64,000 nt of DNA from Acidobacteriota bacterium (lineage in GTDB: Bacteria; Acidobacteriota; Terriglobia; Acidiferrales; UBA7541): the NCBI GenBank assembly GCA_003225295.1, contig QHYZ01000081.1, positions 1-64,000 on the forward strand, read 5' to 3'. Shown here piece after piece: positions 1,364 to 13,554 of this stretch (its first letter is position 1; every line of letters starts with the position of its first letter). Both the position numbers and the translations under genes were made by a program. The notes below the pieces were generated by a model. It was not told where the DNA came from. It ran no database searches and saw only the letters and a list, made by a program, of their open reading frames with translations.

Positions 1364-3275
1364 ATGAAGATCCGGACGAAACTCCTCTTGGCGTTGGGTG
1401 CCATATCGCTATTAACGCCAGTGGCGGCATACGTCGCTGCCCTCATCAGCGATCTCCGCATTTTTCCTTTGCCCTCAGCATGAACGAATACGAAGCCCAA
1501 CAGGGAGTGAATGCTCAAAGACTTCAAGCCGATCTGAATATGATCGGATCGGCCGTGGAGGGCTCTCAGAGCGAAACGTACCGAATACACTCCGTGCCCA
1601 GAGAACGGGAAGATGCCGAACAGCAGCGCAGACTAGCAAATGCCGCACTCCGTTCGTGGATCGCGGCCTATGCAGCACATTTGGACGTCATCACGCGGTC
1701 CGAAGCGCAGCAAGTGCAAGACACTCGGTTGGTGGGACGTGCCAGCATACCGGATGCTGCCGAGCAGCGCGAAACACAACTCCTGAAAAAGCTAAGTGAT
1801 TCGCTTCCCGGCCTCAAATCGAAGGCAGAAGATTTCATCCGGCTATCAGATAGTTTTTCTCAAGCGGAAGGAGAATTTGTCCAAGAGGTCTTCGAGCCAG
1901 AGGTTCGCGGCGAACTTACGAAGACTGTGCAGGAATTGACGGATGAAACTGAGCGGGCAGCTGAGAACTACCGTCGCAGCATCGAGGCAGTACAGAAACA
2001 GTCCTATAGACAGACCATTGTGATCGTCCTTCTTGCTCTGGCAGTTAGCACCGTCCTTGCAGCGGTGGTGTCCGGCGCGGTCATCAGCCCGATTCAAAGG
2101 CTTCGCGATGCGGTGGCGCAGCTCGGACTCGGCCATATGGATACGAGAATCGGCATCCATTCAAAAGACGAATTTGGCGAGCTTGCGGTTGGTTTCAACA
2201 CGATGGTCGAAAATCTTGCGAAGGCACACGAAAGACTTAAGAATTCCATGGGAGAACTGGAATCCCGGAACCTGGAGGCCTGCACCCTCAGCGAAATGGA
2301 GGACTTGCTGCAATCGTGTTTTACGCTGGAGGAAGCTTCAGGCGTGATTGCCTCCTCGGCCCAGAAGCTGTTTCACGGATTCTCGGGCGCCGTGCTGGTG
2401 TTCAGCGCTTCGCGGAATGTCCTGGAAGCCAACACGATCTGGGGACCGAATACTCCTGTGGAACGAGTTTTTAGCCCGAATGACTGCTGGGCCTTGCGCC
2501 GGGGGCACTTACATCATTCTGGCAGCGACGACGGCGCCGTACGTTGCACGCATTTCGGCTCGGATTCTCGTCTGCCTAGTCTCTGCACCCCTCTCATGGC
2601 TCACGGCGAAACACTCGGCATTCTTTGCCTTGTGACGGAACCAAACGGAGGAGCACCGGCCCCCATTTCCGAATTTAACGTACAACTAGCTGTTTCCGTG
2701 GCGGAACAGGCTGCTCTCTCTTTTGCTAACCTCAAGCTTCGCGAGAAGTTGCGCTACCAATCCATTCGCGATCCCCTCACGGGCTTGTTCAACCGACGCT
2801 ACCTGGATGAATCCCTGGAGCGTGAACTATCCAATGCGACACGCAAGAACCGGAGTCTCGGCGTCATCATGCTCGACGTGGACCGCTTCAAGCAGTTTAA
2901 CGACATGTTCGGCCATGATGCGGGCGATACAGTGCTGAGGGAACTCGGTGACTACTTGGCGAGATTCATCCGCCGCGGGGATCTAGCCTGCCGCTACGGG
3001 GGGAAGAGTTCACGCTGATTTTGCCCGAGTGTTCGGTGGAAGACACGCGCCGCCGCGCGGAAGAGCTGCGTATTTCATTTCAACAACTTTCCATAAAGCA
3101 CAGGGATATCGTGTTGGGCAAGGTGACTCGTTCTTTGGGGGTCGCTGCTCTACCGGACCACGGAACGACTGGTGTGGAACTTCTAGCGGCGGCGGACGGC
3201 GCTCTTCTCAGAGCAAAAGAAGAGGGACGTGATCGGGTCTTGATCGCCGAAGTCGCCGTCAATCGTGCTGAGTAG
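1364..3275 (+). pseudogene. HAMP-GAF-GGDEF diguanylate cyclase, two frameshifts
   Basis: Read across two breaks, this is a membrane c-di-GMP synthase. It has an N-terminal membrane helix (1364 onward, LLLALGAISLLTPVAAYV), an outer sensor region, a second helix near 2020-2080, HAMP (about 2080-2260), GAF (about 2290-2730) and GGDEF (about 2755-3250; DPLTGLFNRRYLD is clear). The first break is near a T5 run at 1461-1465; one extra T would join MKIRTKLLL to SMNEYEAQQ. The second is a G6 run at 2998-3003; one extra G restores RYGGEEFTLILPE, so the break falls exactly in the catalytic GGEEF. The C-terminal part (3021-3275) continues with family-like sequence. Either the gene is dead or the sequence has two homopolymer errors. 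Confidence 0.8.
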
Positions 3276-6979: not shown

Positions 6980-7854
6980 ATGCGAAAACTGCCGGATGAA
7001 CTCCATGTCCTTGAAAAACTGACTGAGTGGGGAAGAACCCAGCCGTCAGTGCGAGCGTTGATCCTCACCAGTTCGCGAGCCCGCCCCGAAGCTGCTGCGG
7101 ACCTGCTGTCCGATTACGACGTTGTTCTCGTGGTCACGGATTTAGGGCGGTTCGAGAAAGAGGATGCGTGGATATCAGATTACGGCAGACCCATTGTGCG
7201 CTGGGGTGATCAAAGCTCGATATACGGATTAACCACCCTTTTCAGGGGAGTACTCTATGAGGATTACGTGAAAATCGATCACAGCGTTTGGCCCCATGCC
7301 GTGTTGGAGCGGCTATCCGCTGAAGCGGACCTGCCGGACTCCCTCGATGTCGGCAATCAAGTCCTCCTCGATAAGGACACTCGAACCTCTCGATGGAAGC
7401 TGCCGTCTTATATGGCCCATGTCCCTGGCAGACCTACGGAAGCGCAATACCTGAGCCTGATCGGAGAGTTCTGGTGGGAAGCGACGTATGTGGCGAGGAG
7501 CCTATGGCGAGAGGACCCGGTTTTTGCCAAGTTCTGTTTAGATTACCAGATCAAGTTGGAAGTCATGCGCCGCATGTTGGAGTGGCGCATGGAGATCGAG
7601 CACGACTGGCGGATAAGACCGGCGTTCACGGTCGCGACTTGAACCGCCTATTGCCAGCGGACATCTGGGAGCAATGGTCCAGGACTTATGTCGGTTCGGA
7701 TGTGGCAGAGAATTGGGTCGCGCTGTTTCTCACCATAGAGCTGTTTCGACGTGTCGCAAGGGAAGTGGGCGCCCCGCTCGGTTACACGTACCCGAAACAA
7801 TTGGACGATGAGGTCGCGACTTACCTGAACGCGGTGAGACGTTTCCATCTGTAG
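6980..7854 (+). pseudogene. Frameshifted ANT(6)-type aminoglycoside adenylyltransferase-like gene
   Basis: The product resembles streptomycin 6-adenylyltransferases (AadK/ANT(6) family): nucleotidyltransferase signature SSRARPEAAADLLSDYDVVL near residues 31-50, a central FWWEATYVARSLWREDP stretch and a C-terminal part with LLPADIWEQWSRTYVG. The first frame stops at 7642; the matching C-terminus lies in another frame to 7854. One extra base within CCGG at 7619-7622 would give IRPGVHGRDLNRLLP, the expected family continuation, so a one-base deletion is inferred. As written, the enzyme lacks its last 70 or so residues and is probably inactive. In family members the enzyme transfers AMP to streptomycin; soil copies may have other substrates. 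Confidence 0.75.
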
Positions 7855-8322: not shown

Positions 8323-8346
8323 GCGTCGTTTACATGTAAACGACGC
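8323..8346. promoter_or_regulatory. Perfect 24-bp palindrome, candidate operator
   Basis: The half site GCGTCGTTTACA is followed directly by its exact reverse complement, with no spacer and no mismatch, centred between 8334 and 8335. There is no T-run after it, so it is not a typical terminator. It lies about 100 bp before the start of the selenoprotein gene, a suitable place for a dimeric repressor to bind. Which regulator reads it is unknown. Confidence 0.6.
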
Positions 8347-8448
8347 TCCATACCACCTTTCAACAAACAATACTCTTGCCAACTACAGAGAACGGGAGGG
8401 CGAAATTGGGACTACACTGGGAGGGAATGCCACAGGAGGTGAACGGCC

Positions 8449-9063
8449 ATGGCGCGAATCAGCGGGGCTGATCCGAACAAGCAGGGACTGTTGAGCGGTT
8501 TGTTGACGCGCATTGTTTATGGGATGACGAAACGCAAGCTGGGACGCTTGGTGATGCCAGTGCGCATCGCCGCGCATCACTCAAAGATTCTTTGGGGCTA
8601 TGGGCAGATGGAGCAGTCGCTGCTCGGGAGCCAGCTGGTGGACGCGGGATTAAAGGATTTGGCGCAGTTGCGGGTAGCCACGCTAGTGGGGTGCCCATTT
8701 TGAATTGACATCGGTTCTGCGGTCAGCAGAACCCGGGGGATTTCAGAGGGAAAAATGGTGGCGTTGCCGCAGTACAAAAGCAGTGCGCTGTTTTCGGAAA
8801 GCGAAAGGCTGGTGCTGGAGTACGCAGACGCGATGACGCAGACACCGGTTGAGGTGCCGGACACGCTGTTTGCAAAGCTGCGTGAGAAGTTCTCGGACGC
8901 GCAGCTGGTGGAATTGACAGCGACTTTGGCGTGGGAAAATTACCGCGCGCGTTTTGATCACGCGTTTGGCGTGGAGGCGGAGGGATTTACACAGGGGAGC
9001 TACTGCGCTATGCCGGTGCGGGGAGCGGCAAAGGCGCAGGCACAACACGCTAACTCCCGATAG
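8449..9063 (+). CDS. AhpD/CMD-family selenoprotein (Sec at TGA 8701-8703)
   Basis: This 204-residue protein belongs to the carboxymuconolactone decarboxylase/AhpD-like fold, whose redox-active members reduce peroxides or disulfides through a CxxC pair. The first 84 codons end LRVATLVGCPF; an in-frame TGA follows, then IDIGSAVSRTRGISEGK and the rest of the domain (SERLVLEYADAMTQ, TATLAWENYRARFDHAFG, YCAMP) in the same frame without another stop. The TGA replaces the second Cys of CPFC, as expected for selenocysteine. A perfect stem-loop sits at SECIS distance (8713-8733). The start is firm: AGGAGGTGA at 8434-8442. Without Sec insertion the product would stop before the active site is complete. 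Alternative: a nonsense mutation with a restart at ATG 8755. The selA/selB/selC genes are not in this window. Confidence 0.85.
8713..8733 (+). promoter_or_regulatory. Bacterial SECIS-like hairpin
   Basis: GGTTCTGC (8713-8720) pairs perfectly with GCAGAACC (8726-8733) around a GGTCA loop (8721-8725). The loop GGUC starts 18 nt after the UGA. From memory, the E. coli fdhF SECIS also presents a GGUC loop after a stem preceded by CAUCGGUU, at nearly the same distance; here the bases before the loop are CATCGGTT plus CTGC. SelB binds such loops to deliver Sec-tRNA. The hairpin lies inside the coding sequence. Confidence 0.82.
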
Positions 9064-9187
9064 TTCGCGTACTCGGGCATCAAGTGCCTCTCACCGGCCG
9101 GAAACGGCATTCCCGAATCGAACTCCGCGTGAGCACTGGTTCCGCGACATGGCGGAAATTTAACCCAACTTCTATCCGCAGTACGAA

Positions 9188-13047: not shown

Positions 13048-13554
13048 GTGCACCGAACTGACGGAGATACCGCCGAGATCGAGTTCCTGTATCGCCAGCA
13101 CGGGCCGGCGCTCCTGCTCTTCGCCCAGGGGGTTACGGGTGAACGGAGTCGCGCTCAAGATGCCGTCCACCAAGTGTTCTTGAAGTTGATCGAGAAAGGG
13201 AGTCTCAACCGAGTGGCGGACAAGAAGGCTTACCTATTCGCGTGCGTACGAAACGCCGCTCTCAACGAAGGCAAGCGTCGGGACCGAAATACGCCGCTTG
13301 AGCCGGACTCGGCCTGGTTTAGTCCCCCAGACCGAGACTATGTGGGAGAACGGAATCTGAGGTGTGCGCTCGGGGCTCTTCCGAATGATCAACGACAAGT
13401 CATGGTTCTGCACATATGGGGCGAACTCACCTTCTCGCAGATAAGTGACCTGCTGGATGTTAGCTCGAACACGGTAGCATCGCGATACCGCTATGCCCTT
13501 GCCAAGCTACGCGACTCGATGTTCGCGAAGGAGAATTCTTGTGCCAACTCTTGA
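13048..13554 (+). CDS. ECF-type RNA polymerase sigma factor
   Basis: The 168 residues carry both sigma-70 regions of ECF factors: region 2 (IEFLYRQHGPALLLFAQ, QDAVHQVFLKLIEKG, DKKAYLFACVRNAALN) and region 4 (ALGALPNDQRQVMVLHIWG, TFSQISDLLDVSSNTVASR, YALAKLRDSM). The start is a GTG at 13048. The next gene overlaps it by 14 bases and encodes a membrane protein, the usual sigma/anti-sigma arrangement. It probably directs RNA polymerase to its own operon and to envelope genes when the partner releases it. Confidence 0.92.
   Translation: MHRTDGDTAEIEFLYRQHGPALLLFAQGVTGERSRAQDAVHQVFLKLIEKGSLNRVADKKAYLFACVRNAALNEGKRRDRNTPLEPDSAWFSPPDRDYVGERNLRCALGALPNDQRQVMVLHIWGELTFSQISDLLDVSSNTVASRYRYALAKLRDSMFAKENSCANS

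Follow-up and report, generated by a model that had tools for sequence, protein, structure and literature searches.

Gene and Surroundings

The window, that is, the whole stretch of 64,000 nucleotides that was analysed, carries on its forward strand at 8449-9063 a gene which very probably encodes a single selenocysteine (Sec)-containing AhpD/CMD-fold protein; the assignment rests on the translation, a match to PF02627 (E 4.1e-5), and the predicted fold. The frame running from the ATG at 8449 through the TGA at 8701-8703 (codon 85) to the TAG at 9061-9063 is one and the same, uninterrupted apart from the TGA. With the TGA read as Sec, the product has 204 amino acids followed by the TAG stop, U85 lies within GCPFU, and 119 codons follow the TGA. 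The original prediction that the domain continues for 119 codons past the TGA, and that standard annotation would split the gene, is thus borne out: translation with table 11 yields two ORFs, 8449-8703 (84 aa) and 8755-9063 (102 aa). The Shine-Dalgarno sequence AGGAGGTG is located at 8434-8441, 7 nt upstream of the ATG on the forward strand, and G-rich sites resembling AGGAGGTG precede the start in many relatives. Cys or Sec occurs in the protein at positions 82, 85, and 186 only. The Cys82 codon (8692-8694, forward strand), the first residue of the CxxU motif, is invariant in 90 aligned proteins; the Cys186 codon (9004-9006, forward strand) belongs to the C-terminal tail (GFTQGSYCAMP).

Upstream of the gene, an adenylyltransferase-like gene ends about 600 nt ahead of the ATG at 8449, and downstream there is a 685-aa ORF on the reverse strand; because of this gap and the opposite orientation, the flanking genes are unlike operon partners of the selenoprotein gene. 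When flanks of up to 3 kb were compared in 78 homologous loci, no cluster of neighbours occurred in more than eight of them. This absence of a conserved operon gives no pointer to the substrate. Six loci (L095, L096, L103, L111, L117, and L121) each have a neighbour in one and the same cluster of sigma factor genes; in L121 the sigma factor gene lies 1.3 kb off. Five of these neighbours (all but that of L096) were scanned and match TIGR02957/SigJ, that of L103 slightly below the TIGR02957 cut-off; we take SigJ/TIGR02957 to be ECF41. The arrangement recalls, by analogy, the pairs formed by ECF41 sigma factors and COE genes, with the selenoprotein as the partner. Such pairs are described in the available part of PMC3426412. 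Unlike them, the gene in the window adjoins no sigma factor gene, the nearest one seen being at 13048-13554.

Several other features of the window deserve mention. A perfect 24-bp palindrome at 8323-8346, 102 bp ahead of the start codon, is the only gap-free palindrome in the window with arms of at least 10 bp, and its 20-bp core is the sole copy in the genome even with three mismatches allowed. It is possibly an operator; as a conserved operator it was rejected, since no counterpart was found in 11 relatives within 300 nt upstream. The adenylyltransferase-family (PF04439) gene at 6980-7854 has its C-terminal part in a different frame and looks either frame-broken or affected by an assembly error. 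At 1480-3275, a HAMP/GAF/GGDEF protein is encoded whose GGDEF domain is divided over two ORFs at about 3018.

Codon 85 in Homologous Genes

Homologous loci were collected in two scans that may partly share species. In the scan of bacterial genomes, the protein with Cys in place of Sec served as the query and the best 80 of 84 loci were kept; in the scan of the phylum, 396 genomes including that of the window were searched, 88 had a match at E <= 1e-10, and 30 loci were made. Among the 110 loci, 108 have a readable codon 85 (L131 and L132 gave none). In these 108 loci, the window included, the codon is TGA in 89 cases, TGC in 14, TGT in four, and TCG in one; neither TAA nor TAG was found there. 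The bacterial-genome scan gave TGA in 73 of its 78 readable loci, even though the query pattern GCPFCIDI could, by the tool's description, match only TGY. By record titles, the 80 loci include Acidobacteriota, Planctomycetota, Myxococcota/Deltaproteobacteria, Rokuibacteriota, Gemmatimonadota, Actinomycetota, Chloroflexota, Neomarinimicrobiota (Fidelibacterota), and one gammaproteobacterium. The Sec-encoding rows of the tree span eight phyla by the same titles (all the named groups except the gammaproteobacterium), the phylum labels being dependent on binning, since most records are metagenome-assembled genomes.

The comparison with AhpD/CMD homologues that had been suggested as a check places the TGA opposite the second Cys of CxxC in the Cys-containing homologues, in agreement with the original reading of the CPFC motif; by this alignment, Sec85 would occupy the place of the second Cys in the AhpD CxxC motif. 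In all 19 loci with Cys or Ser codons, the translation runs through without a stop. Downstream of the hairpin described below, the dN/dS ratio is 0.22 (L056), 0.08 (L057), and 0.09 (L060) in the three of seven pairs where dS is finite, dS being saturated in the other four. Judging by these ratios, purifying selection acts on the portion of the gene past the TGA, contrary to the relaxed evolution that would have marked a recent nonsense change.

TGA is a stop codon in table 11 and the halves of the gene are listed as separate ORFs, so that a nonsense mutation, leaving a pseudogene or a truncated 84-aa product, could be suspected. We regard it as extremely unlikely, given a TGA common to 89 of the 108 loci, the low downstream dN/dS (0.08-0.22 for the three pairs whose dS is finite), and the covarying hairpin and set of sel genes described below. 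Equally unlikely is termination at the TGA followed by re-initiation, resulting in two proteins. The 102-aa ORF does open with an ATG, at 8755, but the corresponding Met103 is present in just three of the 90 aligned members (Leu in 55, Ile in 30, Cys and Val in one each), the 19 homologues with Cys or Ser are free of stops throughout, and the modelled protein is one compact domain. Finally, any readthrough would likewise hold the frame open, including that by a suppressor tRNA or an altered code with, for example, Trp at TGA. Such a non-Sec reading is nevertheless extremely improbable: Cys is the aligned residue in 18 of the 19 non-TGA loci, several relatives end this very gene with TGA (e.g., L060 and L061), and both a SECIS element and the sel genes are present. 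Decoding of the TGA as Sec is the reading followed below.

Two homologues have peculiarities of their own. In the Rokuibacteriota homologue L092 (3001-3570), the Sec position is taken by Ser and the residue before it is Cys (CPCS), although selA is present in its genome and L094, next to it on the tree, retains the TGA. In L056, the nearest relative (96% identity; 1064-1185), the first 42 codons are out of frame with the remainder, the break being either in the gene or in the assembly.

SECIS Hairpin

A hairpin at 8713-8733 on the forward strand (stem 8713-8720/8726-8733, loop GGUCA at 8721-8725) starts 9 nt past the TGA, and its loop is spaced 17 nt from the UGA. Alone it folds at -14.1 kcal/mol, with z = -2.0 in a 76-nt stretch. 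The bSECIS model, as given in the available part of PMC13188914, requires a loop of 3-9 nt, a stem of 4-16 bp, G in the first two loop positions, a spacing of 16-37 nt, and a minimum free energy of at most -7.5; in a comparison made by hand, the hairpin agrees with it in every respect (5 nt, 8 bp, GG, 17 nt, -14.1 kcal/mol). A search of Rfam with positions 8400-9100 at E <= 1 returned no match. Since the z score of the single sequence is modest, the case rests on the conservation and covariation of the hairpin.

These were assessed in an ungapped alignment of 82 of the 89 TGA-containing rows (80 of them distinct; the locus of the window is L026), from which L027, L028, L039, L041, L046, L052, and L053 were omitted because their hairpin is shifted or missing or their identity is low. 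The covariation score of the 82 rows is 0.244, compared to a mean of 0.078 after shuffling and a maximum of 0.138 when slid; both-sided changes occur in six of the eight stem pairs (44 of 640 cells). At the outermost two positions, pairing is seen in just 11 and 23 of the 80 rows, and thus the common core of the hairpin consists of six pairs. The coding sequence appears to be constrained as well: Ser inside the stem is encoded by TCT in 68 of 71 rows, whereas outside it these genes use TCT for 52 of 867 Ser codons, and Arg is encoded by AGA or AGG in 70 of 73 rows versus 151 of 1324 codons outside, a codon usage indicating that the hairpin forces rare codons (Ser TCT, Arg AGR). The stem TCTGC...GCAGA is present in no Cys locus. 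The identification of the 8-bp stem with the GGTCA loop just past the TGA as a SECIS element, proposed originally from this sequence, is therefore upheld by the bSECIS model and by covariation in 82 sequences.

Among the TGA-containing rows, L028 and L125 have no good hairpin, and the hairpin is shifted in L027, L039, L041, L046, L052, and L053. The last five of these (28-31% identity) have a TGA-bearing CxxU motif and a strong hairpin with a GGC loop, 2 to 3 nt farther from the TGA than in the clade of the window, and possibly represent other branches of AhpD-like selenoproteins.

Sel Genes

The search for sel genes in the rest of the genome, suggested along with the original prediction, found selA, selB, selC, and selD. 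The NCBIfam models score over their cut-offs for selA (574 bits), selB (359 bits), and selD (345 bits), and among 14 control genomes the cut-offs are passed by selB in two, selA in one, and selD in two. With the tRNA-Sec model RF01852, whose gathering score is 47, a gene of 68.7 bits is found, and ARAGORN reports the same gene as SeC with the anticodon tca. Since RF01852 also exceeds the gathering score in five of the 14 control genomes and in a second place in the genome of the window (47.6 bits), the assignment depends on the higher score together with the ARAGORN result. The SelD of this genome has an in-frame TGA of its own (KAAGUAAK).

Presence of selA was checked in the genomes of 50 among the 80 loci first listed: it was found in 41 of 45 genomes with a TGA-bearing locus and in four of five with a Cys or Ser locus; of the five genomes among the 50 that lack a selA match, four have a TGA-bearing locus. 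In the phylum sample, selA is present in 14 of 15 genomes with TGA at codon 85 (the exception is G104) versus 252 of 396 overall. As sel genes are common in the phylum, this co-occurrence is in itself weak evidence.

Fold and Family Membership

The AlphaFold2 model (pLDDT 96.8) is one compact domain and predicts, with high confidence, the all-helical AhpD fold. The match to PF02627 (CMD) passes the gathering cut-off only narrowly (23.9 versus 23 bits); 89 of the 90 aligned members have a CMD match at E <= 0.001. The 13 best structural entries, with Z from 18.4 to 21.9, are AhpD/CMD-like or titled as of unknown function, and Bmp8 appears among them twice, which assigns the model to the AhpD-type fold. 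The nearest solved folds are 6k40 (Z 21.9), 2oyo (21.4), 2prr (20.7), 2pfx (20.3), and Bmp8 (20.1); AhpD of M. tuberculosis matches with Z 10.8. By family profile, 2o4d (E 3.8e-37) and Bmp8 (E 3e-22) are matched. TIGR01926 (peroxid_rel) scores 29.2 bits, below its cut-off of 81.8. A tblastn search of plasmids gave 253 records, all with identity below 60%; E. coli ynjA is among the matches listed.

The best-scoring solved structure, 6k40, is an AhpD-like protein of D. radiodurans, which we take to be DR1765; its fold resembles that of the window protein (rmsd 2.2 over 180 aligned residues), but it has CxxC, no Sec, and 18% identity. According to the available part of a review, D. radiodurans becomes more sensitive to H2O2 when its AhpD-like protein is lost, and the CxxC of DR1765 is reported as important for H2O2 resistance (PMC8945050).

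In classical AhpD, the proton relay includes a Glu 15 residues before the second Cys, a His four residues after it, and a His just before it. The relay of the M. tuberculosis type is absent from the window protein, which has Gly89 at +4 and Phe84 at -1. Relative to Sec, the residue at -15 is not conserved; at +4, the 89 Sec loci have Gly (62), Asn (14), His (12), or Val (one), and Phe occupies -1 in 68 of 75 Sec rows. As many Cys homologues have His where the window protein has Gly89, and as the -15 position is not conserved, the classic AhpD chemistry may not apply. By raw counts, His at +4 occurs in 12 of 89 Sec loci versus 12 of 19 Cys or Ser loci; a link between Sec and the loss of this His was considered and rejected, the starred branches of the tree giving only three independent pairs, which is not significant.

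A selenoprotein that acts as a reductive dehalogenase, similar to the debrominase Bmp8 (6ohi and 6ohj), or as a reductase of another electrophile, rather than as a peroxidase, is an unlikely though not negligible alternative. Bmp8 is among the closest folds (183 residues aligned) and profile matches, its CMYC aligns with CPFU, the residue four positions past its second Cys is Phe, not His, and the entry title C82A fits a first Cys at residue 82 in the entry numbering. However, other AhpD-like proteins are equal or better matches, 6k40 by structure and 2o4d by profile. Bmp8 has Cys where the window protein has Sec, and the identity over the structural alignment is 16%. The neighbour genes, among which only sigma factors are annotated, favour neither side. 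The literature search found no study of Bmp8.

Clade of the Window Protein and Tail Cysteine

The protein alignment has 90 members: the window protein, 74 of the other 88 Sec loci (at least 175 aa, with an ATG start), and 15 of the 19 Cys or Ser loci (L045, L047, L049, and L051 were left out). The clade of the window comprises 71 of the 90 rows with an SH-aLRT value of 96 and includes 67 Sec, three Cys, and one Ser proteins; a single quick tree underlies this division between 71 inner and 19 outer rows. The whole tree needs seven changes of state. This distinct clade, the missing AhpD His relay, and a conserved third Cys in the tail were not part of the original prediction.

Cys at position 186 is found in 63 of the 71 clade rows, in a tail of the form G-F-S/T-x-G-x-x-C-x-x-P, and in none of the 19 outside rows, six of which have a Cys somewhere past N164; L135 has a tail Cys nearby but out of column. 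The three Cys-coded and one Ser-coded members of the clade retain the tail Cys, and thus it follows the clade rather than Sec itself. No Cys beyond positions 82, 85, and 186 is present in 52 of the 71 clade rows. The tail at 181-190 is modelled confidently (mean pLDDT 94).

The nearest selenoprotein model of NCBIfam, NF053654 ("GroundWater_YciW, YciW-related (seleno)protein"), is likewise of the CxxU type, and residues 1-177 of the window protein align with its positions 1-173 of 179. With Cys in place of Sec, the window protein scores 136.8 bits (E 6.5e-40) against the equivalog cut-off of 310, and nine other proteins of its clade score 111-134, all far under it. In contrast, 300.8 bits were obtained, also with Cys for Sec, for L034, a member of a different Sec clade (CxFUQDINAAV), none of whose six rows has a Cys in the Cys186 column.

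Discussion

AhpD-like (COG2128) and CMD-domain (PF02627) selenoproteins with the CxxU motif have been in print since 2005 (PMC1088965), and are also described in PMC1794560, PMC2398784, PMC9312934, and PMC13188914, as far as the available parts of these papers go. Consequently, the window protein belongs to a known kind, and the premise that AhpD-like proteins are among the reported prokaryotic selenoprotein families holds. By description, the AhpD-like/CMD selenoproteins of Zhang and co-workers share with it the CxxU motif, the CMD/AhpD domain, and a SECIS element past the UGA. In the available parts of the sources, three selenoprotein families were counted for Acidobacteria in 2006 (PMC1794560), and one Acidobacteriota genome is listed with three known selenoprotein genes (PMC12013277). 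The tail Cys received no mention in the accessible parts of the AhpD-like/CMD selenoprotein literature, in a search aimed at other features of these proteins.

Taken together, the alignment of TGA with Cys, the SECIS element, and the sel genes support the initial proposal of Sec in a CxxU motif. Very probably, the gene encodes one 204-aa AhpD/CMD-fold selenoprotein, with UGA 85 decoded as Sec by means of SelB, the hairpin, and the tRNA-Sec of the genome; as to the decoding step, it is almost certain from the genomic data that SelB, acting on the hairpin just 3' of UGA 85, would direct the insertion of Sec with the genome's own sel genes and tRNA-Sec.

AhpD uses the second Cys of its CxxC motif as the peroxidatic residue, and hence Sec85 is the presumed attacking residue. 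By analogy with the family, Sec85 would, somewhat more probably than otherwise, reduce a peroxide or a similar electrophile, the selenenic acid being then resolved by Cys82. Cys186, to judge from its conservation, might then take part in the passage of electrons from an outside reductant, a step to which we give slightly less than even chances. The proposed relay Cys82/Sec85/Cys186 is speculative. Still more tentatively, the clade could be a branch of the AhpD fold, undescribed so far and dominated by Sec, with three redox residues, namely Cys82, Sec85 replacing the Cys/His relay, and Cys186 as a dedicated resolving residue in the tail; as part of the same rather doubtful reading, it would form a thioredoxin-reductase-like shuttle on an AhpD scaffold, distributed over eight phyla and, in some places, put under the control of ECF41-type sigma factors.

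Overall, a gene split in two by table 11 is, in all probability, a single selenoenzyme gene. It belongs to a broad clade where Sec outnumbers Cys 67 to three (with one Ser) among the sampled rows, and the conserved tail Cys, along with the missing His relay, makes a concrete and testable proposal on how Sec may be used in these proteins.
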